DNA of 64,000 bases from Antennarius striatus (lineage: Eukaryota > Chordata > Actinopteri > Lophiiformes > Antennariidae), in assembly GCF_040054535.1 (NCBI RefSeq), contig NC_090796.1, forward strand, positions 15,713,501 through 15,777,500, in the 5' to 3' direction. This document shows, in pieces, positions 3,633 to 63,730 of this stretch. The translations under genes and the position numbers were made by a program. Numbering within the stretch: the stretch's first letter is position 1; every line of letters starts with the position of its first letter. Under the pieces are notes generated by a model. That model did not search any database, had not been told where the DNA came from, and was given only the letters and a program-made list of their open reading frames with translations.

Positions 3633-4746
3633 ATGGCCGACTCTGACGCGCAGGAAACCCGCCAACCCGCTAAAGACTCGCCGTTCTCCATCAAGAACTT
3701 GCTGAACATCGAAGACAAACCAGTGAAGCCGAAAAGCTTCTTCAGTTCATCCAAAGGAGTGTTCGAAGGCAGCTTCTTCTCCCGGCTCGGTGAGCTGTCT
3801 TTCCCTCGGTTCGACTTGCCAACGCAGAGAATCGGACTATCAGCGCAGTATTTGGAGAGAGCGTCCACCTGGTGGTACCCGTACACGCTCGGGACTCATT
3901 TGAGGACCGGAGGTAAATATTGTTAAATCTAGCTCTGGAAATTGTCTGAAAAAGTCTTAATTTAGATGGATGCTATTTTTATAAGATTAATGGAAATTTT
4001 ATAGGGTTTAATATGTCGCCTGTATCCGGATTTATGTCAGTAAAAATGCTCATTTTATTAATGCACCTTCAAAAGAAACATCCAGAAGAGACAGATACGA
4101 TATTTAATGGTTTAGAGGATTCTAACTGAGCCCTGGTTTCTGGTTTTCTCTAGGATCTGAAAAGGCCAGCCACAGAGAAGCGTCACCGGCGCCAGACAGG
4201 CGCTCCCCGGACCTCCAAAAAAGTGACCAAGATGCCAAAGAGGAAAGCGCGGATGACGATATCGCGTTGGAGGAAAGTGACTCAGAAGAGCCAAAGAAAG
4301 AAATAGACCAGGAGGACGACTGGAGAGGAAAAACGGGCGAGTTGGATTCCGACAGGAAACCGTGTCGGAAGAAGAAGACGCGCACGGTTTTTTCCAGGAG
4401 TCAAGTCTTCCAGCTGGAGTCCACCTTCGACATAAAGCGCTACCTGAGCAGCTCGGAGAGGGCCGGCCTGGCCGCGTCCCTGCACCTGACGGAGACGCAG
4501 GTGAAAATCTGGTTTCAGAACCGGAGGAATAAATGGAAAAGGCAGCTGGCCGCGGAGCTGGAGGCGGCAAACCTGAGCCACACTGCGGCGCAGAGGATTG
4601 TGCGGGTTCCCATTCTCTACCACGAGAACGGAGCCCCGGACTCGGCCGGTGGGCGCGCCGCAAACTCACCGGGCAGCCAGTCGCTCCTGGCTTTCCCTCA
4701 CCACATGTACTATTCCCACCCGGTCCCACTGCTGAGGCCCGTTTAA
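3633..4746 (+). CDS. hmx3: Homeobox protein HMX3 (NKX5.1), two exons
   Basis: Exon 1 is 3633-3912 (donor 3913); exon 2 is 4154-4746, stop TAA. The product is 290 residues. The start at 3633 (MADSDAQE) is preferred because known HMX3 proteins begin about 15 residues before the [10 protein letters not shown] motif. An in-frame ATG at 3603 would add ten residues. [10 protein letters not shown] (residues 16-25) is an Eh1-like repressor motif. The segment near residues 80-90 contains WWYPYTL. The homeodomain (about 165-224; 4366-4545) contains [19 protein letters not shown] and [16 protein letters not shown]. It is followed by the HMX3-type tail [14 protein letters not shown] and a terminal [12 protein letters not shown], which separates it from HMX2. 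Family role: a nuclear transcription factor in inner ear, lateral line and hypothalamic development. Human HMX3 is longer, mainly through alanine/proline-rich stretches absent here. Which teleost copy (3a or 3b) cannot be settled from the window. Confidence 0.96.
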
Positions 4747-7093: not shown

Positions 7094-9076
7094 ATGACCG
7101 GCTCAAACGAGTACAAGCTGAACCAGGGACCAGAAGACGGCATCTCTGCTGTGAAGTTCAGCCCCACCACGGCCCAGTTCCTGCTGGTGTCCTCCTGGGA
7201 CTGCACCGTCCGGCTGTTCGATGTCGTGAGCAACACCATGCGGATGAAGTACCAGCACACCGCACCGGTTCTTGACTGCGCTTTTTACGTGGGTGTCAGG
7301 TTTAAGTGTGTTATTGACTTATCAAAGCGTTGAAATCCATTCAAACAGATTATCCCCCTTTCTGTTTTCAGGATCCGACACATTCTTGGAGTGGGGGTTT
7401 GGATGCACAATTAAAAACTCATGATTTGAACACAGACCAAGGTATAAATCCAACCTCAGTGGTACCAGTCATCCCAAATCCATCTCAGATCTTCAAAACG
7501 ATGTGATTCCGCTGTATGTGTTTACTGATGTGTTGTTTATCATCCTCAGATACGATTGTTGGAACACATGAAGCCCCCATCCGCTGTGTGGAATACTGCC
7601 CAGAGGTTAATGTGATGGTTACCGGTAGCTGGGACAGGTCAGTCAGGCTGTGGGACCCGAGGACACCCTGCAACGCCGGCACTTTTACTCAACCTGAAAA
7701 GGTAACGTCAAACATCCGATTGGATCAAAAGCTTGTTTTTGCATTGTTGAACTCTTGGCACCACGTCTCCCTCTTGTTGTCACGGTGACAGGTTTACACC
7801 CTTTCCGTGGCCGGAGACCGGCTCATCGTCGGCACGGCCGGAAGACGAGTCCTGGTGTGGGATTTGAGGAACATGGGTTACGTCCAGCAAAGACGAGAGT
7901 CCAGTCTCAAGTATCAGACTCGCTGCATCAGAGCCTTCCCCAACAAACAGGTCTGTTTTACATATTATCCTCTTTTTAATCAGTTTCACACAGCTGTCAG
8001 ACATCCAACTACACTGTATTCGAAACAAATCGCTCAGATGAGCTCTACTGAGAACAGGCATGTAAAGGAGTTGGATGCTAACTTCACGCTTTTCTTTCTC
8101 GTCTCCAGGGCTACGTGTTGAGTTCCATCGAGGGACGGGTAGCTGTGGAATATCTGGACCCAAGCCAGGAAGTCCAGAAGAAGAAATACGCCTTCAAGTG
8201 CCACCGGCTGAAAGAGGACGGGATCGAGCACGTGTACCCCGTTAATGCCATCTCGTTCCACAGCGTTCACAACACCTTTGCCACAGGTGTGACTGTTGCT
8301 GCTGTTGTTTCTGTAATGGAGTGGTTTTTACACCGATGATGGCTTCTGACGGTTGTTAGAGATCCAGATCTCTCCCTCAAATCTTCACCCTGGAGTGTCT
8401 CCTCCTTCCAGGCGGCTCTGACGGCTTCGTGAACATCTGGGACCCGTTCAACAAGAAGCGCCTGTGTCAGTTCCACCGCTATCCCACCAGCATCGCCTCG
8501 CTGGCCTTCAACAACGACGGCACCATGCTCGCCATCGCCTCCTCCTACATGTACGAGAAGGGAGACATCAGCCACCCGGAAGACGCCATCTTCATCCGCC
8601 AAGTCACGGACGCCGAGACCAAACCCAAGTGAGTCCCTCCTCATCCTCGCCCCCTCGCGTCCCCCGAGACGTTTTGAAGCTGCGAGCCTCCGCCACTGCA
8701 GCGTTCGCCGATCTTTATCACTGTCCGTCTTCAATATCCGACAGTTAAAAGATAGAGCGGCTGAAACGGAGAATATCCTCCCCCCATGTCAGAAACGGAC
8801 ACTCAGCAAGCAGACATACACAAACACTGTATTAAAACAATCTACACGAAATACAGCAAGTCAGCTTCCAGACGCTGGAGGTGGGGTCGGATATTTCTTT
8901 GAAAGGACACATTATGACCTCAGAATACTTTTATTTTTAACAGAACATCTTGATTTAAAATCCAGGTAGTCACATGATCAAAACAAGCTTCCACTGGCTC
9001 AGACGAACCAGGGTGAATATGGGTGACTCGCCTCTGACTCGTCTGGACTGTTTTTTGTGTTTGCAGGTCGACCTAA
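7094..9076 (+). CDS. bub3: Mitotic checkpoint protein BUB3, complete
   Basis: Coding exons: 7094-7288, 7372-7441, 7550-7701, 7792-7950, 8109-8286, 8412-8628, 9067-9076. Every intron has GT-AG ends and phases agree, giving 326 residues. The ATG directly follows the exon acceptor and yields [18 protein letters not shown], as in vertebrate BUB3. WD40 beta-propeller landmarks are [39 protein letters not shown] and [14 protein letters not shown], and the length equals the family's. Role: BUB3 binds the GLEBS motifs of BUB1 and BUBR1 and phospho-MELT repeats of the KNL1 kinetochore scaffold, supporting the spindle assembly checkpoint. The last coding exon adds only a split Lys plus Ser-Thr. If the final intron is retained, TGA at 8630-8632 ends the protein after the same Lys, so the 3' end tolerates alternative splicing. 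Identity with the mammalian protein is very high by eye. Confidence 0.97.
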
Positions 9077-18141: not shown

Positions 18142-21100
18142 TCACTCGCTGAGCGTGATGCTGTGGATGCTGTTGGCGGGGATTTTGGCGTCCGCTTCCT
18201 CGCCGCTGACCCTGAAGATGACGAAGGTGTTGGAGGGGATGGTGGCGGTGGCGTTCAGGGTCTTACCCAGCCAGCCGTCAGAACCACGCTTGTACATTTT
18301 CACCGTTACCTGCAAGGAGGGGGGAGGAGGAGGAAAAACAGACAGAAAGCGAAGGTTAGAGAGTGGAAAGTGGAGCGATGTTGCCGGGGTCATGACCTCT
18401 TGACCTTTGGCTGGAGGTAAGCAGACACTCGTGAGTTTCAGTTTGACCTACAAGCTGTTGTTTGGACTCAAGAACCGACGGGGAAATCACAAACGACATC
18501 AAGTCACGTTCGACTGGCCAGCATCATCTTCATCGTTATTTTAACAGGTAAATAAATCGGTTATCAGCGAAAACAGCTGGAATTTAAAAAAAAAATCATT
18601 CCTAAACTCGGCAGAAATATTGTACAACTCTTTAGGAACGATGATCAACATGTAGGCATCTAAAAAAAAATCAACCCGCTTTTCAAGGTGAGCGTTTTTA
18701 ATTCCACTCTGCATCTTGAATGGAGTCACACCACTCTTGATTTTATGTAGGTTGTAGGGCATAATACGTTTTAACACGACATCAGAACGGCCCTGTTATG
18801 TTTGAGCCTGACAATGGAGGCCTTAACTAGATTTAGACATGCAGGTAATTGAACTACATCCATTTTTAAAAAAGAATGCCTCGCAGCATCTCTTGTTTGG
18901 CTGCATTTACAGGGATAACAGAATATTACGGTGCCTTTTCACAGTTCCATTTTCTTTCACTTCAGCATTAGGCAATTTTTCAATTATTATTATTTTTTTT
19001 TCCATGCTCTTTCATCCCCAGCTCTCCATAATGCCTGGGCCTTTTAGTTAATGGCAGCGACAGTCAGAGCCCAGTATATCAGCCCTTGTCCATTTTGCAG
19101 GTCATTGTGGGAGCCCAATAGGCCTTTTATTACACCGACATCAAAAGGCAGATAAGCATTAGAGGTGGGGAAAATACCCTGCACTAGATATGTTCCCTCT
19201 TTCCTTTGTCTGCTATTGAAAGTGATCATTTTAATAGTGAAGAGGTTGCTGAGCTCCGGGGCTGATGGGAAGAGCGACACCCCTGACAGCCCACGAATGC
19301 GTGCCGAGTCGATAACACACCGCCAGCAGCCCAGCACACCCTCAACACCTGCACACTCTTGCTGCTAACCTAATTATCTGCAACAAAGACCGCCGCGATT
19401 TCACACACACATCCTTCCACCATTTACTTACCTATTACCGTGCATTAAAAACAAGGCAGAGAGAGAGAGGGGGAAAAAAAAAAAAAAAAAAAAGGGAACA
19501 ATTGCGTCTTATATTGCAGCCTTGGCCGAATGCCACATGGCTCGCGCGACAATAGCGTCAGACACTTCACAAGCGAAAGTGAGGGTCTATTAATTGGGGG
19601 ACGCATGGAGAAGTCGCTTCGTGACAGCTGGTGGCAGAGAAGCACATAAAACCGACACAAAGACGTCTACAGAGGATTGTTCTAACAAAATCACGGCCGC
19701 TCGTGACAGTTGGTCATCAGCGTTTAAATAATTTAATGGAACCGATGTCCAGTGATTCCATCTTTGTCGAGCTGCAGAGGCGCAAACACGATGCTGCCGA
19801 GTTCATCCTGATGCACATCTGAAAAGTTTGCAACACTTATCCCTTTTTTTTTTTTTTGTTAAACCCAGGATTTGAAAAGGTTCTGGTGTATTCGCAGTGT
19901 CATAAAACACAAAGAACACGTGTCTCCAGCGTGATTCAGATGGATTTTCCAGAACTTTGAGGTGCAGTGGAAACGTAAACCACAAAGATTAGGAGGAATT
20001 TCCTCAGGTAAATAAATTCCTGCTAATAAAAGTTGCAGGAAATGATCCTGATTTGCTGATGGAACACAACTTCTTTTTGGATGGAGACCTGCCGTGTTCC
20101 AAATTAAGGACCCTGAGGAACTCCTATGGGTATATGGAACCATGATGAAGAATACGGATCCATTTTTTACCCAAATATAAATCTTAACTTTCACAGAAAC
20201 ATAAAAATCCATGAAAGTCCCCAGAAGCTGCATGATTTCAACCGACCTTCTCGGTTATCGTACTGCAGTCTGATTCAGACTGGCCCTTTCCCAGCCTTTA
20301 ATTTGGATTTTTTTCATACTAATGGAAAAACATTTAAAATAGACCATTTCTTAGCAAAAATGTGATCCAGAATCTGCATCAATACCCAGATTTGCTTTGA
20401 AGTTTTTGATCAAACCTACGTCAAACTTCCCGCCACAAACAAGAAAAGAGAATAATAATACAAGTTGATATTTAAGAAGCAGAAAAAGAGTTCAGCGTGC
20501 TCTGAAAGGAGAAATCAAAATGCACTGAGCATCCCGAGGTTAAAAAAAAGAAGAAGCTTTTTTAAAGGCGTACCAGAAGCGTGCGAGTCATCGCCACGTC
20601 AAGCACAGGCAGGCCTGAATGCGTTGGAAGCTTCACGGCGAGGACAGCACCCTTGGGGCGAAGGTTGGGTGTCGCACAAAAGGTGAGCTCGCCTAACCGT
20701 CTGCCTCTCACTTTCTGTGTCGTGTGAATGACATCACCGCTCACATTTCAACAACAGCGGTTCGGGGCCTTCTTTATTTACCGTCTGCAAAGTAGTTTTA
20801 AAAGAAAAATCCCGCCTCTGGTTCACCTTTTGAACCCGACTCCCGAAGGCGCGGGCTGGGTCGTCTCCGTCGCCGTGACTACACGGTAGGTCATCAAACG
20901 TTTTAAAGCGTAGATGTGATTATCCCGGCTGATGAATCACTTAGAGGGGGGGGGGGGTGTGTCACCGCCTGCATGTACACCCATTCACCAAAGTTCAGAT
21001 TCCTCTCTGATAAAGCCCAACAATCCCCAGTGGCGGATCAGTCAGCGCGGGCCGTTCACCTGGAGGCACAGGTGCAGGGTTTCAGGTGAACTCTGAGTGA

Positions 21101-24100
21101 GGGTAACGCCACACCGGCTTCAGACGACGGCCTTTTTGTTCCGCGCCGCATCTCGCCCTGGTGCAGATGGGGAGTAAACACACACACACACCCCGGCGTG
21201 AAAAGGCATCTTTGTCGACGAGTCAAGAGTGACAGAATCGGACCAACAAGTGGTTTTTTAAGCTGACATTTCGGCGGGATTAACAAGATGATTAGGTTAA
21301 GCCCTGTGGTTTGGCTCCATGGGAGAGTAAATAAACAAACTTCTGGGGTAATTCTAGAAGATAAATGATGGGGGTTTTTTTTAAATCACAGGTTCAGTCC
21401 GGTTCATTTTAAAAACCATGAGGTAAATTCGTTAAGACTGCTCATCTCATTACGCCTAAGAGAATGATTGGAAGAGCGTCGCGTTCCGGAGTGTCCTCTG
21501 CTTCTCGTCCGTAAATGGATAGACCCCAGCAACCCCCGTGACGCACGAAAGTGGAATAAACTGATAAAGATGAAGGAATTTTATTTCAAATCCAATGAAT
21601 CAGAACAAATTCTGGGATTCAGAGAGATTATATTAATCTGGAAGGAGTAGAAGTAGAATCCTATCTCTACTCTAACCTCTCAGCCTACGCTAAAACCGAC
21701 CATTTAAGATGCCTCAACTCTTTCTGTATAAATAAATACAGGTGTAAACTTTAACGCAAAGTTAAACTTCTGATCTTCCAACCAGAGGAAGCCATTAAAC
21801 TCTCTAATATAACCAAAGACTCCGGTTCACCTGCCCCCCGACTTTATTTCCGTCCTTATAGGCGACATTTTCTGTGAGAGGTTCAAATATGAATCCCCAT
21901 CCCTCTATCTTTCTTTCTTTTTTTTGTGTCCACAATAGGTCTGGTTGTCTGGCCGACTTGAGAGGCCACAATCCATGGCTGATTTAATTTGCTCTTTACA
22001 AACATCTCTAACAGCATTACCCCCCAGAGCATACACTGACCGCCCCCATCTGACTCCATTAACTCACAAATCGGGTTTAAAGACCATATTGATGCCGTCC
22101 GTTATTAAGGGTGATTATCAAAACAACAGACAATGGGCCAAAGTGTCTGTTAACTAGTTTATCCATAATTTCAGCTAACTGTAACAGATGGCAGGGCTGT
22201 CAATTACAGGCTGGATCTGCTGCACACACTGTCTGGATATGCAGCATATTAGCCTTCGCATTAAAAGAACGATAGTCTGCTCACAGGTGGCCGGAGGAAA
22301 TGAACCGAGAGCACACAAAATGTACTGATATTAAATGTCAAACACGGACACGCATCAATTTGGGAATATACAGGGAAATTTAGGGTTTTTGTTTGTTTTT
22401 TTTCCTGTATAATAAAATAAAATCCACTTCACCACCTTTATTCTTCTCAATTAATGAGAATGGCTTTTGAAAGTGTAATTAAGTATCCGTCCTCCACCCG
22501 GACGCTTTATTATTCATGAATCTCCATTGATGGTATCGGACTACCAGGACCACGAGGATCACTGTTAATATCCTGGATCCACCACCCCCCCAAAAAAAAT
22601 AAAAAAACAAATAGCTGAGCTTCCAGAGATAAAAATAACATTTAGGGGTCAGAGAAATGTTTCTGTTCACTGCTAAATCCAGAATTTGATGCCAGATCGG
22701 ATGATGTCAAGAGAATCATTAATAGGAGAAATGCTGATTGAATACGCTATAGCAAATGTCTGGGCGATAATTCAATATGATCATTTATTGGGTTTGGCTG
22801 GAGCCACATTGCTACGATATGCTCGTGTCATTACGGTTAGAAATGATTTTTATTATAGATCAATCTGCGTGTTCTTGACTCGATTAATAAATCAACAATT
22901 TTGGGCGAAAAAAAAAAAAAGTTAGGAAATAGGAGGTGACGTGGATCAGTTTGATCGTTTATAACTAGTTAAAACATCTGAGATCAGATTTTTATTACAG
23001 GCTACAAATTTTAAATTACAAATCTGTTCCACTTTAAAATTCAAACAACTGCAAAAAAAACCCCCCCTCACAAATAAAAATAAATCTTCATCTGGTCGTT
23101 TCAGGTTTTTCATAGAATTGTGGTTTAACAGAATCATGAAAAATCTGTTAAAATGTGATTTTATTTTGCACATTTTATCACTTTGGTCTGTAAAGCATCA
23201 CAACTGAACGTTTTTCACTGTTTTTGAAATATTTTTTACCTCAATTTGCTGATATAAAAGTGATCTAGACACAAATCTTTAAACACCATGATCGACTTCT
23301 TTCTTTTATTTCTAAACTGGTCTAACATTCAGTACGGCGTCGCAGCTCATTTCACATTCAAAGAAATTATTTTATAATGAATATTAATGGTTTGGAGCTT
23401 TATTTGAAACACGAATTCAAATTTACTGGAACTCAATCTCCGTCTATGTGAAGTAGAAATGTGTAAAACATGAACTCCACCGGTTGATGTTTAACTAAAT
23501 TAACAAAAGAGCGCTTGAAGAGCCCTTTAAAGCGACTGCTGTTGCATTCTGGGTGATGAATGTGGAGGAAACGCGTTGAATCATCTCCAAGCCAAACGGA
23601 CGCGGAATCTCTCCATAGAAAAACTAGATTTTAGCAAGTTTAATCAGAGGCTATCACAAAGCAGCGCCTTCCTCTGTTTGAGTGCTGGAGTCTTCGCTGC
23701 TTCATCACACACACTTCTCATCCTGCGGCGCTCTCCTCCTGTATAATTGCATGTTGAGCTTTTCCTTCCTACACACACACTCCAGTGCAAATTATTTCCA
23801 ATTCCAGTTTCCTTTTGAGAGCGATGCTGCAATTACAGTTCTGGTAATTTCAACACAATTTTCATTTTTTTAGTTGAAGAAGAAAAAAAAAAAAAAGAAA
23901 AAACAGCAGCTGATAGATTATCATTACTTTCTAGGGGATTCCTCAGAAAAGTTTGGAAATCCTCTTTTGTCCCTGACGAGTTGGGAACTCGACGAATCCG
24001 TAAGTAAAAGCAAATCTCCTGAATGTTAAAGTAGTAGAAGTAAAAAAGGTCAAACGGATCACCGCTCCTACTTCTGATGTTTCAGTCCGGGACGCATTTT

Positions 24101-24739
24101 TTAACGCCTCTTGTTCTTTTTTAAATATAAAACTACTCGTGTCAAATTTTTATCGACATTATATTTAGTTTCACATACTGAACTACCAATTTATGCATAT
24201 TAATATTTAATTTATGGTATTGCCATGAAATGAAAGGTTGAAATTGAATTTTTCTACTCTGACCGTTGAATTATATTGAAATTTGATGTTACTTTAGCAA
24301 CTTTGGAGCCGTAATAAAGTCTTTACCTCTAAAGATAAAACTTCTGTCGGGTCATTTGACTGAAAACAGCGTTTGGTTTATTTTTTTTACTGTTTTAACA
24401 GCACAGAATCCTTTTCTTTCTGGTTATTAACACATCAGAGAGGTTCTGATGCCGGGTTAATTTGGACCATTTCAGGTGAACAATCGCACAAACCTGTCTC
24501 TTAAACTTTTTACAGCGTGCTTCAGCTCCTGGCTGCTCCATCATAAATAATGTGTAATTACTGATGATGGTTAATGGTTATTCTTTAAATAACTAAACAC
24601 TCCTCTATTTACAAAGACATCAGAACGCCACGGCCAGCCAGCGTGGCCTCTTTGGGCTGCGGGGTCGGCGAGCTTTGTCGCCGGTCAGCTCCTGGCCTTT
24701 TGTGCGCCTCCATTCATTCTCGCCACAGAGCACAAAGGT

Positions 24740-24785
<46 letters not shown>

Positions 24786-27700
24786 TAACGGCCTGCGACA
24801 CGTGCAGCCCCGGGAGATGGCCGAACCGAGAGGAATGTCAGAGCGGAATTAACAAGCTCCGTCCGCGTCCATCCAGAAGGGACGTCTCCGTGGCAACCGA
24901 GGTGGGATGGTTTGTTAGCGGAGGTGAATTCTGTTCTATTAATTAGTTCGGATGTTCTCTATGAGGAACATTAACCTCTTCTCCTCCTCCTGAGAAAAGC
25001 TTTCCATAAACTGGACACGAGGCCTCGGATAAATAAACTGCACTTAAATTAAACACACACCAGAACACCCCCCAGTCCACACAAACTGAGAACGCGGTCT
25101 AAGAATATAGCCCATAATTAATAAATTACAGCCTCTCTACTCCATCATTCTGCACTGGGGGGGGGGGGTAACACTGACGTCCAGGAGCGATCGGACGCCT
25201 CACCTTCCCGGTGGCTTTGTGGATGCATCTGGCGCCGTATCGCACATCTCCCCCCTCCGCGTGTTTACAACTAACAAATCAAAAGCATGCATTATATTTG
25301 GGCTCTGAAAACACCCCTGGGGGAGCGCCCGGGGGAGCTCTCGGGTTTCTCCCCCCTCCCCACCCCCTTCCCGTCGCAGCTGCTCTACGGGAGATCTTAT
25401 TATAGGGAGGTGGAAAATGTCTGAAAACACTTCACCGAAGCTTTACTGTACGAATATCAACACAACAATGTCTGATGAAGGGAATATTTATCATATATGC
25501 TCCCTATGGAGGGGTGAGGGTGGGGTTGTGTGTGTGTGTGTGGGGGGGGGGGGTCACCTCATCTTGCTTCCATTAACAAATATTTCTTTGAATGTAATAT
25601 ATTTTGTTGTCACCCTGTTTGTCGCCTCGGGTTAGAAAAGCGCCCGTCTGATGACTGTCAGGGTCGTGTATCAACCACACAGCAGCTGGAGGCCAGAGGG
25701 GGGGTACGTAAGGTCTGGATGGGGAGGGGGGGGGGGTCTGTAAGGAAAGCCTGTAGTGTTTGGGTGCTGAGGCTGTCGTGGAGGCTGACCCTGCTGTAGA
25801 CTCTAAAGTTCACAGAATGTTTGATGTTTTAATTCTATTTAAATTTAATTTTAACTCGGCAAAGATTCTCCTTCATTCCTCTTAAAGAGTTCAAGTTTTT
25901 GTAGACGTTTATTCTAAACATGTTAATCTGCAACAACCAAAAATTATCCTGATAGTTGTAATTGCTGTCACTTAATCTGCTGTTTACACAGTAACACCCA
26001 CACATCCCCTAATTAAATATCACCCTAATTGTTTTTGAATAAGTGTAGAATTGCTCTCATTCTCTGCAGTTCAAAATGAAAACCAGAATACTACTGCCCC
26101 CTGCTGGTGGCTGGGTGCACTACACCTCCACGCACATAGGGAACCTGTGGTCCTGGTGCCCCCCCCCCCCCCCCCCCCCCCAGCCGTGGACTCACCCGAG
26201 GGGCGTGAACTGATGACAGGAGGGTGGACTCACCTGAGGGGTGTGTCCCAGCAGGGCCCACAGCGAATCGGCGGAGAGGGTTTTGGTTCCGGAGAACTCC
26301 AGCGTGTCGGTGTCCTGCCGGTTCAGGGCGATGAACTTGCACCCCTGGTAGTCCCCCCTCAGCTGCTCCCCGTCATGCAGCCGCACCAGATCCCACGTCC
26401 CCACCCTCCTCAGGACCTGCCGGACCGCCTCCATCTGCCTGTAGGACAGGTGACCTGCAGGACGAAACCAAACACCGTGAAAAGGCGGGACTTCCCGTCA
26501 AAACGCCCGCTTCATTTAAGGACCGCTCACCAGAAATCCAGGAGGGGGTCATCGCGTCCGATAGCCAGGCTAGGTAGCCCCCCTTGAAGGAGGCCAGGAA
26601 GTCGTCTATCTGGTCGTGGGACAGCAGCTCCCTCCTCTTCCTCAGCTCCTCATCCAGCTGGCAGTCCGGAGAGAGGAAGACGACCCTGGGGAAGAAGAGG
26701 CTTTGGCGCACCGACACGCTACTCCTCTTCAGGTGGCTGCATAGGTTAGCTGTCTTGGTCTGGAGGAGAAGAATGTAGGGGGAGGTAACAATCAATTTAT
26801 ATTAGTCATTGATTAATTAGTCATTCAGGTTGACACGGTCACTTTAGACAAATAAATCTGATTTAAACAGTAATATAAAATAATTTAAAATGCCTTAAAT
26901 CCAACAGAGGATGTTTCTACGGAGACTATCTCTGCCTCGCTCATCGATCAACTTTTCATTTCCACCTCGCCTCAAATCAAACCTGTTGGTTTCGGGGTCG
27001 GCGTACGGATGTTTGTCCAGTCCGAACCTGCTTTGTGTGGCTGAAGCCCAGTCGCTACCGTCGGCTATCTGAACAGCACAGTGTCTATAGAGATGGAAAT
27101 GACTCCTACAGATGGGGGGCCGCGGGGTCACAGCTGTGTTTAGGCACCTGCCGGCTTTCAGCCCCTCTCTGAGCGTAATTATCGCCTTTCAGATGAAGAG
27201 CAAGCACTTGGGAAGTTTAGAAAGCCTCATTGTCATGTTTGAAAATTTCCATATAGATTGTTGCTCAGGATCTCTTAACCCGACTGGAGCTTGTTAGCTC
27301 ACAACGCGCCGCAGCTGATTGGCCCCTCCTGAGCCGGACTGTTTGACATTCACGTTTTCACGATGGTATTTCATCATTTCAGATAAATGGCTTTTTATAT
27401 TCATTCTCTTTCTTCTTTTTTTTGTTTGTTTGTGTACCGTGATAGCTTTCAGGGGATCTTCAAACTGCTCGATGCAGGTATTGCTAAAGTTTTGGTCCAC
27501 GTCTTTCACTTGCGCGTGCCAGTTGTGTTTGTTAGCCGATACCGAGCCTCTCCAGGGTTTGACGTCTATGCAGAAGATCCCGTGGCCTTCACAAAAAAGG
27601 ACAAAACAGAGTGGTACCCACAATGCAAAGAGCTTACAACGTCAAGCAATGTTTTCAGGAAAGGGTTATCCTGGATGCTAACCTGCGAGGATAACGACGT

Positions 27701-28664
27701 TGATGTCGTCTTTGGTGTTTTGGAACTGGTCGGGGACGCGCAGGTTGCAGTAAACATCTTCTTTTCTCAGCCCGGTCAGTTTCCTGAAATGATTTCAATT
27801 TGTAAGAACACGTCACGCATAAAAACATTGTTTGAGTTCAATTTGGCCACTAGAGGGCGGTAGAACGAGCTGCAAACATTACGAACGAGCTTGTCATTGC
27901 TAAGAGACTATTTCCAATGGTTGTCCCTCTAAAGGCTGAACTCTTTCCTGTAGCTTCTCAGCTAAACTTGTTCACATGCCCTAATATTTCTATATGTGCT
28001 TGCAGACACTGATGTATACCAAAGCAGCAAGACTGTCTAGCACGTGTTTTCAAGCTTGTGATCTCTCCTTAAACAGGATGCATGCTAATGCCTTTAGCTT
28101 CGGGGCTACATAGAAGATTTCCACATGTGCAAACCAAACTGTGACCTCCACACATGCCGTACGAATTAATTCTGCGTTTGCCGTCATTTTCTTGAGGAGA
28201 ATGCTTACAGCCCTTTTTAGATGTGAAGTTCCACCAAAGTTTCGTGGACCCAACTTTCCGTTGTCTTGGATGAAGTCTGTTACTTACTTTTTTTAAATTT
28301 TATTTTTATACACTTATAATCCCTTTAGAGGAATTAAGAATGCACTCTCTAGTTTTAAGCTTGTGAACTGTGGAACTGAGTGGATGCTAGGCTAGCTGAG
28401 GCTAGCTGGGGCATTTTACTGGTAACCAGTTGGACTTGTCGGCTAGCGAGGGAACATTTTTGTCATTCTCCGTTTATCCGTTGCAACCTGGGGCTTTTGT
28501 CCTCCACTTGTATTTCCATCTTTAAATACCAATAAGTATTTATCACGTGACCACACTCACCTGACGCGCTGTAGAAACTCAGGTAGGGCCGGCGTCTGAT
28601 GTGGGCTTTCTGAATCTTTGGAGCCCGGATGGAACCGGGTCAACAGACTTCCCAGCTGAGGCAT
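18142..28664 (-). CDS. NERD-like (nuclease-related domain) protein, six coding exons, function unknown
   Basis: Minus-strand exons in transcript order: 28664-28561, 27783-27683, 27586-27438, 26759-26531, 26454-26234, 18309-18142. All introns are GT-AG and phases agree; the product is 323 residues and begins MPQLGSLLTRFHPGSK. Residues about 35-190 resemble the NERD domain: DDINVVILAGHGIFCIDVKPW places Asp61 and Asp76-x-Lys78 where the E(I)D ... (E/D)xK signature of PD-(D/E)xK nuclease-like folds lies, and FEDPLKAITTKTANLCSHLK matches the family's 'nPl.Q' helix. A Lys/Arg/Glu-rich helix and DQIDDFLASFKGGYLAWLSD follow. The last 110 residues look beta-rich (VRLHDGEQLRGDY, then VTVKMYKRGSDGWLGKTL). 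There is no signal peptide and no membrane span. NERD proteins are known in bacteria, plants and some animals, mostly uncharacterised; nuclease activity here is unproven. The acceptor just before the ATG implies an upstream non-coding exon. The gene is flanked by bub3 and gpr26, both on the opposite strand. Confidence 0.82.
24742..24783. repeat. (CA)n microsatellite
   Basis: About 20 CA units in the long intron of the NERD-like gene. Confidence 0.95.
26094..26107 (-). promoter_or_regulatory. CTCF-like motif (reverse)
   Basis: On the minus strand CCAGCAGGGGGCAG matches all 14 positions of CCASYAGRKGGCRS. It lies in the NERD-like gene's last intron, 127 bases from exon 5. Occupancy is unknown. 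Confidence 0.5.
27847..27860 (+). promoter_or_regulatory. CTCF-like motif (forward)
   Basis: CCACTAGAGGGCGG, preceded by TTGG, matches all 14 core positions and part of the flanking preference. It sits in the first intron between coding exons of the NERD-like gene, about 60 bases upstream of its second coding exon. Confidence 0.55.
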
Positions 28665-29079
28665 TCTGGTGTTTATCTGGGGGGAAAAAACAACAACACA
28701 ACAATAAAAACACACTCACATTTCGCTGACTCAGCAGTTTGAAACAACGTCACTGTCCTCCAGGAAGTTGGTCGACCCCATCATGACTACAGAGTCTTTT
28801 TTGGCCCACAACTATGATGGGTGCAAATGTTCAGGGTCATGTTGCCCCCAAACTGGGATTAGAGGGACGGAGTCATCGAGGATATTTCTCTAACGTTCTC
28901 ATTCCAGACTAAAAACCCACATTTTCTCGACTGAATAAATTTAAAGCATAAATTTTAACTTTTAAGCCGTTTTTTGTTTTTTTTTACGACAGGCAAAAAA
29001 AAAAAACGACCCCGACTCAACTTCAAAGACAACAAAGAGCCGACAAAGGGCGCACGAGCCAACCGCAGGACCATACGTA

Positions 29080-29410
29080 CGGTAGAGGGCTCGCGCCGTG
29101 TGATAAAGAGTCGTCACGCGGGGGAGAAACGACCCGTTTCAACTCGACATCTTCCCGGCGACGACGTCGCCTTGTTGTCCACAGCCGAGCAACGGGATCA
29201 CTGCGCGTGGGGGCGGGGGCGTTTCACAACGTCCGCGTCCCCTCCCCCCTCCTCCTCCGCTCCGGCAGCGCTCCCAACGTTCCTGGAAGAAGTAAACAAC
29301 AGACCACGTGCGCCGTCCCAACGCATCAGGTTTCAGCTGCTCAGCCGTGACGTCAGGAAACGTCACTCAGCCCTGCCCGGGCGCGTGCAGCTGCTTCCAC
29401 GTGATGTTTA
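29080..29410 (-). promoter_or_regulatory. CpG-rich likely promoter of the NERD-like gene
   Basis: A CpG-dense, GC-rich block about 0.4-0.75 kb upstream of the first coding exon, unlike the AT-rich flanks. It contains a full CRE/ATF site TGACGTCA (29348-29355), a CACGTG E-box near 29297 and another at 29399-29404. The acceptor immediately before the start codon (28664) shows that a non-coding exon lies upstream, which this block would supply. Start site and orientation are inferred. Confidence 0.5.
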
Positions 29411-38016: not shown

Positions 38017-41000
38017 ATGGACACTGCGGAGGTAATTCTCTCTGTGTTGGTGGTTGTGATTATTATAGTGTCGTTGCTGTCCAACATCCTGGTGCTGATC
38101 TGCTTCCTATACAACCCGGAGATCCGCAAGCAGGTCCCAGGTTTGTTCACCCTCAACCTCACCTTCTGCAACTTGTTGCTGACCGTCTCCAACATGCCTC
38201 TCACTCTGGTGGGGCTCGTCATCCAGGCGCAGCCGGGGGGAGACAGCTTCTGCCGGATAGCGGGCTTCTTGGAGACCTTCCTGTCCACCAACTCGATGCT
38301 GAGCATGGCAGCGCTGAGCATCGACAGGTGGATCGCGGTGGTGTTCCCCCTGAGGTACCACTCCAAAATGCGCCACAAGGACGCGGCTTTTGTGCTCGGG
38401 TACACGTGGGCGCACTCCATGTCCTTCTCCACGGTGGCCACCAGCCTCTCCTGGGTGGGCTACCACCGGCTTTACGCGTCCTGCACGCTGGCAAACGCCA
38501 GGGCGAGCAGCTGGACCCAGTTCGTCGTGTTCACCATCTTTTTCCACTCCTTCACCTTCCTCCTGACTTTTATAGTTCTGTGTGTCACATATCTGAAAGT
38601 GTTGAAGGTGGCGAGGTTTCACTGCAAGAGGATCGACGTTATCACAATGCAAACTTTGGTGCTGCTGGTGGATATACACCCCAGGTGAGCCCCTTTCTGT
38701 GTGTGTGTGTGTGTGTGATAATATTTAATGTGGATTCATCTCTAAAGCATAAAACAAACTATGAATATCAACCCTCTGATCAGATAAAAAGGAAAGAACT
38801 CCCCAGGAGCATCCAGTCGGTTCCATCCTCCTCGTTCACTTTGAGGTTACATACTGGAATAACTCCGTTCCCTATCCGAGCACAGCTAATGAAGCTCCTC
38901 CATTTTTGCATTTACATTTAAATCATGGCCTTGTTATTCAGAGGGGATGCGAAATCTATTTAAATGTCACCCACAGCAGTGGGTTCACTCCCACCCCTCC
39001 ACTCTCTAAAAAGCAAAATGTGAGTGATTTATAGCTAACCTTGTTTAAAGTCTGATGAGATTAAAAAGATCCAACCTTCAACATGTCAGACGTCTACATG
39101 ACATCTAGAACCGTCTCAGTGACCTCCAGCTAATGAAATATAACTTGAAGCTTTATGACATCATAGCCGTGATGTAAAAAGTCATGCATGAACGTAAAAA
39201 AAAAAAAAAAAAAGCAGATTCTGGATCGGGTTCCATCCTTCTAACCTCGACTTTTGTGTTCTCCAGCGTCCGCCAGCGCTGCCTGGAGGAGCAGAGGAGG
39301 CGACGCCAGAGAGCCACCAGGAAGATCAGCACCTTCATCGGCACCTTCATGCTCTGCTTCGCTCCTTACGTGATCACGAGGTGAGCCGCCGGACGACCCC
39401 AGGCGGCGGTGGTGGAGGGAGGAGAAGGAGGGCGAGGGATGCCAGCCTGGCACACTGCGGCATTCACAGCCTTCTTTGTTTTGCTGGCATCCCCCAAAAC
39501 CTCCCTCCTCCCCCCTTCACTGCCTCCCCTCTCCACCAAGCCGGAGTTGGAAGATGAGATTGGCTGACCTTGTGATAAGTAATACGCCTCGGCTCTGTGG
39601 TTCCTGCTGCATGAGCACTTTTTCTCTTCAAGCAGAATGTAGCATCATTTGAAATATGTGCTATCAAAGAATCTGTTCTAAAAGCAACTAAATGTTGTTG
39701 TTTTTAAAAAAAAATAAAAAAAATCTTTCGTTGTTGGGCTGCAGGGCCACAAAAGTTAGAGAAGAAAAACACCAGAAATAACCCGTCTCTGTCTCGTCTT
39801 GGTGTTATGAAGTAAATGCAGTGTCATGTTCTCAGAATAATGACATCATCAGCATTTAGATTGCTTTCCTATGAAGCTCACTTTCCCCATTCAAATTCGT
39901 TTCAGCCACCCCCGGCGTGCAATCTGTGGAGGAAATAAAGGCGGGCTGGACGGAGGTCCGACCCGGTCCCCCTTTTCTATCTACTCTCAATAAATGAATC
40001 AGAAACAGGAAATAGTTTTGTCCTTCCACATAAAAAACAGTTTAATTGTCTCCTTAAGAGGAAATGGAAGTTTTCACCCTTGTTCACTTGTTTGTTTGTT
40101 CGTTTTGGGGTCATTTTGCGTAAAAGTCAAAGCCGCGGCCTGATGGCGGATTTAATCCCACCAGCGCTGTGGAGTATATAAAAGTGCTAGCGATGGCTAC
40201 CTGCCCATGTAGGGCTAATGTTAATGGGCTGGTGGGGCTTGATGGTGGACGGCGTAATCACACAGAGTGCAAGTGGACAGGATCAGCGATTTTCTTCTCT
40301 CATGACAGTAAAAAAAATCTCAGCACTCGGAAAAAGTAAAGAGTAAAGCATCATTTTTCTGTTTTTACTGTCTGTCCCTTTGAGATTTCGTCCTTGGCAT
40401 CAGTAAGTTTAAATCCACTTTAATACCAAAGCAAAGACAGTTTTCACCTTGGGAATTTGCATTTGGTTTTGAAAAATAAACATGCTGTCTCCTTGGGTGC
40501 TGCCCCCTTCTGGTGACCTCAGGTATTTTGCACCTTAATGCATCTAAAAACTGCAAAACTCCAAAACAACCTGGAAATACCTCGTTAAAAAATGCCACGA
40601 GTCAAACAAAACAGAGTCCTGGGGGGAAAAAAAAAAGTTTAGCAACTTATAATGATTCCGTTGTGAATGAAGCTGCTGCTGTTCATAACAACCACTGCAA
40701 ATGGCTCCAGGCGGAAACCTCTTCCACCGCGGGGGGGGGGGTTCTCATCTGCTGTTCTGGTGGAGAAACGGGAGGCCAGATGCACATTCATATGAAACTG
40801 CATCTGAAGTGGGACGTGATTCCAAGATATGTGCACAAATATCTAAATATAAAATAAGCCTGACATGCAAACGCCGGGAGGTTTTTGCTCCAAATCAGGC
40901 CTCGTGGTAGAACTCCTGAGCTGGGGGTGTTGGTGGACTCTGCATTAGAGAACGTTCAAAGCTAATTGGCTTGTTTCCAGACTCTCGTTACTGTTAGACA

Positions 41001-41489
41001 GGTCTGCTTTATGCGACCGGTGGCTCTTCTTCTTCTTCTGGCAGGAAATGCAGCCGGCTGCAAATAAGAAAAGCGATGATAAATAGCCCCCAGCATGAAA
41101 GGTAGCAATAGTTGTTTTCACAGTTGCAGTATTTTATCTTATGGGCTCTTTTCTTACTTCATTACAGCCTCAAGAAGCATTTCTATTTATGCTTAATAAA
41201 AGCTTTAAAGCGTGCTATGTCTCCCTCTTTCACCACCCTTACCTTTATTCCCACCTGCAGGATCGTGGAGTTATTTCCAGCGGTGCCTATCAACCCCCAC
41301 TGGGGAATCGTCTCCAAGTGCTTAACTTACAGCAAGGCGGCCTGCGACCCCTTCGTGTACTCCCTGCTCCGCCACCAGTACAAGAAGACGTGCGCTGACA
41401 TCATCAACCGGTTGCTGAAGCGCAGCTCCCTCAACGCGTCCAGGCCCAGGCCCGAAAACCCAGGCAGCAGCATCCCGACGGCTGAGTGA
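38017..41489 (+). CDS. gpr26: Orphan class A receptor GPR26, complete, three exons
   Basis: Exons 38017-38684, 39267-39380 and 41261-41489; GT-AG introns, consistent phases, 336 residues. The ATG at 38017 gives MDTAEVILSVLVV, aligned with the GPR26 N-terminus. There are seven hydrophobic spans. TM1 is about residues 7-31. FTLNLTFCNLL in TM2 has Asn where most class A receptors have Asp2.50. The TM3 end reads SIDRWIAVVFPL, so DRY is replaced by DRW (103-105). HCKRIDVITMQTLVLLVD and the exon-2 segment RRRRQRATRKISTFIGTF form the long third loop, followed by CFAPYV in TM6. TM7 has DPFVY (290-294) in place of NPxxY. Family knowledge: GPR26 is a brain-enriched plasma-membrane orphan receptor with high basal Gs/cAMP signalling, and its relative is GPR78. 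Both intron positions interrupt the region from loop 3 to the start of TM7. Linkage with cpxm2 supports the call. Confidence 0.96.
38699..38720. repeat. (GT)n tract in gpr26 intron 1
   Basis: About ten GT units just after the exon 1 donor. Confidence 0.9.
40500..40513 (-). promoter_or_regulatory. CTCF-like motif (reverse) in gpr26 intron 2
   Basis: On the minus strand CCAGAAGGGGGCAG matches 13 of 14 core positions. It points toward the forward motifs at 33844 and 33921. Confidence 0.4.

Positions 41490-48025: not shown

Positions 48026-63730
<15,705 letters not shown>

Follow-up and report, generated by a model that had tools for sequence, protein, structure and literature searches.

Proteins with an N-terminal NERD domain include PglW (a BREX/Pgl kinase), MAD6 and the Mokosh protein MkoA, all of which are proteins of anti-phage systems. 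The domain has been reported in bacteria, some archaea and some plants and, in a passage of the SmdA study, its function is said not to have been studied before to the knowledge of its authors (PMC9040797); part of a Leishmania gene table also includes a NERD entry (PMC9031872). Judged by its titles, the NERD literature searched, including that on zebrafish and teleosts, has no evident vertebrate NERD protein, although fish database annotations may list the gene described here. This gene lies in a 64 kb window (contig NC_090796.1, positions 15,713,501 to 15,777,500), which is the whole stretch of DNA analyzed, from the 548 Mb, 42-contig genome of Antennarius striatus. It is a real, little-described fish gene, and its protein is a member of a nuclease-like family that occurs mainly in bacteria; both gene and family are supported by the exon chain, the Pfam match, the rise in score when exons are joined and the placement in the locus. 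The interpretation preferred here, with modest confidence, is that of a real single-copy gene encoding a two-part protein, in which a degenerate NERD domain would act by binding and the C-terminal part would give specificity.

The gene is composed of six exons on the minus strand (Table 1), which join into 323 residues followed by a stop codon. All five introns are of the GT-AG type, the phases fit, and the joined frame contains no internal stop, which bears out the exon chain of the original prediction, and the spliced protein contains the sequence ILAGHGIFCIDVKPW and the residues Asp61, Asp76 and Lys78 that were named there. Residues 42-142 match the Pfam NERD family (PF08378) with an E-value of 8.1e-10 and 39.6 bits, well over the curated cut-off of 22.1 bits, and the proposed membership is thereby upheld. 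Judged from its sequence, the protein has a NERD domain as its N-terminal part (about residues 40-155). The Pfam score climbs across the exon junctions, from 19.5 bits for exon 3 to 36.6 bits for exons 2 and 3 and 40.7 bits for exons 2 to 4 (exons 3 and 4 reach 23.1 bits), and the splicing is therefore independently supported. Exons 1, 2, 4, 5 and 6 taken singly, as well as exons 5 and 6 joined, have no match to this family.

A profile of 80 bacterial NERDs, slightly biased toward the fish in that its rows were aligned together with the fish row before this was removed, scores the joined protein at 40.6 bits. None of 20,000 shuffles reaches this value (the best of the 11,547 reported with a score has 15.9 bits), and among the 1,072 open reading frames of the window the one containing exon 3 scores 22.7 bits and the best other one 6.4 bits. 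Sixty of the 80 sequences come from search results and 20 are weaker, hand-picked ones; the 62 bacterial loci concerned (L008-L069) yielded 60 NERD stretches at threshold from 59 loci, with L037, L039 and L040 dropped. Because some loci carry the same gene twice, 35 rows that are non-redundant at 60% were also used.

Coding evidence comes from codon scores trained on the exons of the neighboring BUB3 and GPR26 genes and compared with stop-free non-exon stretches of equal length. Just 0.5 to 1.5% of these stretches equal the scores of exons 2, 4, 5 and 6, and the GC content at third codon positions (GC3) is 0.84 to 0.90 in exons 4-6. Exon 6, which lies beyond a last intron of 7.9 kb (18310-26233), has a codon score of 31.9, compared with 7.8 for the next of 103 terminal-exon candidates. 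The gene model also has weak points. Exon 1 codes poorly, with 22% of the stop-free stretches scoring equally, and contributes 0.3 bit to the NERD score (41.0 vs. 40.7); exon 3 has a borderline codon score (5%) and a donor, ACG/GTACAC, that agrees with the consensus in 5 of 9 bases; and the 1.5 kb 3' of the stop codon contain neither AATAAA nor ATTAAA, whereas an AATAAA first occurs 1.7 kb past the stop and a TATAAA is found at 1.2 kb. The weak exon 1, the weak donor and the missing AATAAA near the stop are also what would speak for a chance assembly of unrelated open stretches mistaken for a gene, an explanation that is hardly credible in view of the Pfam E-value and the shuffles. The gene at the coordinates of Table 1 is confirmed as real.

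For exon 3, one shorter variant (donor CAA/GTGAAA) was tried, and the longer form was kept because of its higher NERD score (40.7 vs. 37.4 bits). Fifteen alternative upstream first exons and one internal phase 0-0 exon in intron 5 scored poorly. A strong acceptor-like site (TTTTTTCCCCCCAG) is found in frame at 28664-28690, 12 bases 5' of the ATG, which suggests either a 5' untranslated exon or that a first coding exon is missing from the model. Farther upstream, the two 200-base blocks of a CpG-rich stretch have observed/expected ratios of 1.46 and 1.00 (window median 0.71, 95th percentile 1.25), so that only the first lies above the 95th percentile. When the fish protein was searched against its own genome, the six exons were the sole matches, and no second copy was found, among the best candidates scored. 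Pfam NERD, run over all six frames of the whole genome without regard to introns, gave no match at E up to 0.001, since three exons share the coding sequence of the domain.

The active site of the domain is only partly preserved. The (D/E)-x-K motif on strand 3 is present as Asp76-Val77-Lys78; the acidic residue on strand 2 is missing, an active-site feature that the Pfam cut-off does not demand, and so is the Gln of the helix that follows the motif Pro, replaced by Ala116. The catalytic Asp position, 13 residues before Asp76, is held by Asn63 in agreement across the alignments that show this stretch, and in the bacterial NERDs this column is Asp (78/80) or Glu (2/80) and never Asn. The motif Gln is not universal, since it occurs in 24 of the 35 non-redundant sequences and in 38 of the 80 overall. 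In silico residue changes, scored with Pfam NERD against 40.7 bits for the unchanged sequence, gave 46.6 bits for N63D and 38.9 for N63A; 42.4 for D60A, 38.9 for D61A and 42.5 for D61E; 38.0 for D76A, 42.8 for D76E and 35.9 for K78A; and 44.6 for A116Q. The column of Asp61 is filled mostly by Glu (35/80), Gln (27/80) and His (5/80). Because the alignments place Asn63 in the catalytic column and the in silico changes agree, Asp61 lies off this column, and the catalytic reading of the original prediction is not supported, while its NERD membership and its position between BUB3 and GPR26 stand.

In the main rival interpretation, which is possible but rather unlikely, the protein is a working NERD nuclease that uses Asp61 instead of the usual Asp. 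In its favor, Asp76 and Lys78 are retained, Asp61 shares a strand with the usual Asp position, and in one alignment E29 falls on the helix-1 Glu (15/17). Against it, this last match is unstable on realignment (Glu in 5 of the 35 non-redundant rows), the catalytic column is acidic in all 80 bacterial NERDs, and the motif Gln is lost too. The domain is thus probably an active-site-degenerate NERD and not an efficient nuclease, as far as its residues tell. Some caution comes from the 20 weaker bacterial NERDs, of which 9 lack an acid at column 76 and 8 lack Lys at column 78; all 20 retain the acid at column 63, and a structural role is therefore also possible, so that this acid may have structural importance besides catalysis. 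In a group of weaker bacterial NERDs (loci L075, L077-L080, L084 and L089), the strand-2 acid is kept and the acidic residue of (D/E)xK is lost. By their motif residues, degenerate NERDs occur in bacteria too and are not unique to this fish.

Under the preferred interpretation, the NERD domain would retain the PD-(D/E)XK fold. In a model of a bacterial NERD protein, the active-site positions sit in a fold of this nuclease-like type. With Asn63 in place of Asp, a metal ion would be poorly held, and a domain with its nuclease fold kept and its metal site damaged would therefore be expected to bind rather than to cut, serving as a module that binds nucleic acid or a partner and not as an efficient nuclease. 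The C-terminal part, about residues 195-323, may supply partner or location specificity. Exons 5 and 6 match nothing in Pfam at E up to 10, and no domain was recognized in exons 1, 5 and 6; by eye, the C-terminal part resembled a small beta-barrel, and no search backed any name. A vertebrate NERD with an altered active site would make a non-nuclease function of the family approachable in an animal.

The names HMX, BUB3, GPR26 and CPXM2 for the neighboring genes are putative and rest in part on their Pfam domains. The homeodomain exon upstream of BUB3 is presumably of the HMX/NK type, which would be consistent with the mammalian order HMX-BUB3-GPR26-CPXM2. By exon positions and Pfam domains, the NERD gene, read from the minus strand, is flanked by a BUB3-like and a GPR26-like gene, as had been predicted. 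A Pfam scan of seven window stretches matched four (homeodomain, WD40, 7tm_1 and peptidase M14) and left three without a match (two BUB3 exons and the last GPR26 exon). Against the PDB, one BUB3 exon has an mRNA export factor as its top match (1.8e-10) and yeast BUB3 as its second (3e-9), and GPR26 exon 1 returned nothing at 1e-20. Neither a tRNA nor an Rfam family at gathering score was found in the window. The CPXM2-like exon lies on the opposite strand from the GPR26-like gene; in mouse, a carboxypeptidase gene is likewise described as opposite in strand to GPR26 in a passage of PMC3572983. Passages on the human region (PMC5668427, PMC4302572), neither of which is a full gene list, mention no gene in the BUB3-GPR26 interval.

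Table 1. Features of the NERD gene and its neighborhood in the 64 kb window (window coordinates; percentages for codon scores give the share of stop-free stretches that score as high).
Feature	Position	Strand	Details
Exon 1 (ATG at 28664), residues 1-35	28561-28664	minus	open frame; donor CAG/GTGAGT, 9/9
Exon 2, with Asn63 and the NERD strands as far as ILAG	27683-27783	minus	lifts the NERD score of exon 3 (19.5 bits) to 36.6 bits when joined to it
Exon 3, core of the NERD domain, contains D76-x-K78	27438-27586	minus	alone 19.5 NERD bits, below the 22.1 cut-off
Exon 4, NERD end and linker	26531-26759	minus	exons 2+3+4, 40.7 bits; codon score 1.0%
Exon 5, start of C-terminal region without known domain	26234-26454	minus	GC3 0.90; codon score 0.8%
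Exon 6, C-terminal region and stop	18142-18309	minus	top of 103 terminal-exon candidates; codon score 0.5%
Asn63 codon AAC, NERD catalytic Asp position	27699-27701	minus	Asp 78, Glu 2 of 80; N63D +5.9 bits
Asp76, Val77, Lys78 codons, (D/E)xK motif	27558-27566	minus	column 76 Glu 69/80, Asp 2/80; column 78 Lys 70/80
Ala116 codon, NERD motif Gln column	27444-27446	minus	Gln 24/35 non-redundant, 38/80 overall; A116Q +3.9 bits
CpG-rich stretch, possible promoter	29000-29399		upstream of exon 1
Homeodomain exon	4126-4743	plus	Pfam homeodomain match
Exons reading as BUB3	7094-8629	plus	one exon with Pfam WD40 match
Exons reading as GPR26	38017-41486	plus	exon 1 with Pfam 7tm_1 match
Carboxypeptidase M14 exon reading as CPXM2	49653-50069	minus	Pfam peptidase M14 match

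The neighborhood bears on a further alternative, in which a weakly functional gene is retained for intronic regulatory elements of the neighboring HMX genes and is drifting to loss. The length of the last intron and the replaced active-site residues would suit such a gene, and conserved non-coding elements are described in the human HMX2/3-BUB3 region in part of PMC4302572. The six open exons with their uninterrupted joined frame, the high GC3 of exons 4-6 and the coding-like scores of exons 2, 4, 5 and 6 argue in the other direction, no element has been identified in the introns here, and this alternative is accordingly held to be quite improbable. The 7.9 kb intron itself may contain regulatory elements.

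As for the origin of the gene, it is conceivable, though doubtful, that this vertebrate gene derives from the NERD nucleases of bacterial phage defense, was retained in fishes at a constant site next to BUB3, came to encode a catalytically dead adaptor or sensor of nucleic acid whose C-terminal domain is new, and was lost in mammals. Searches for relatives gave no pattern match for the fish protein in viral contigs and, with a two-row profile, 67 pattern matches in genome contigs, none of which was confirmed as a relative. One plasmid PglW matched the fish protein at just E 0.2, five phage-record matches (E 0.1 to 6) appear to be due to chance, and the best PHROGs match has an E-value of 0.3.

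Compared with solved structures by sequence, the fish protein has an unrelated best match (E 0.27), and the best match of the bacterial NERD profile (E 0.049) falls outside the NERD part. The nucleases Can2, McrBC, EndoMS and Hjc have a fold in common with the model of the bacterial NERD, which was compared in place of the fish protein and with which they share 9 to 15% identity in the rows examined. SmdA of Staphylococcus aureus is set apart by its description, in the passage cited, as a membrane-anchored bacterial cell-division factor (PMC9040797). The NERD region of the fish protein matches the N-terminal NERD of PglW, MAD6 and MkoA, with partial matches far under the full-length cut-offs (42.3 of 460 bits for MAD6 and 22.5 of 990 bits for PglW), but unlike these proteins it has no kinase or helicase match in Pfam. 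Like other members of PF08378, it has its motif residues in the usual order and at the usual spacing, as well as the D/E-x-K, G82 and P113. It departs from the family in Asn63 and Ala116, which stand at the positions of the catalytic Asp and the motif Gln, in about eight extra residues ahead of P113 and in a C-terminal part without a known domain.
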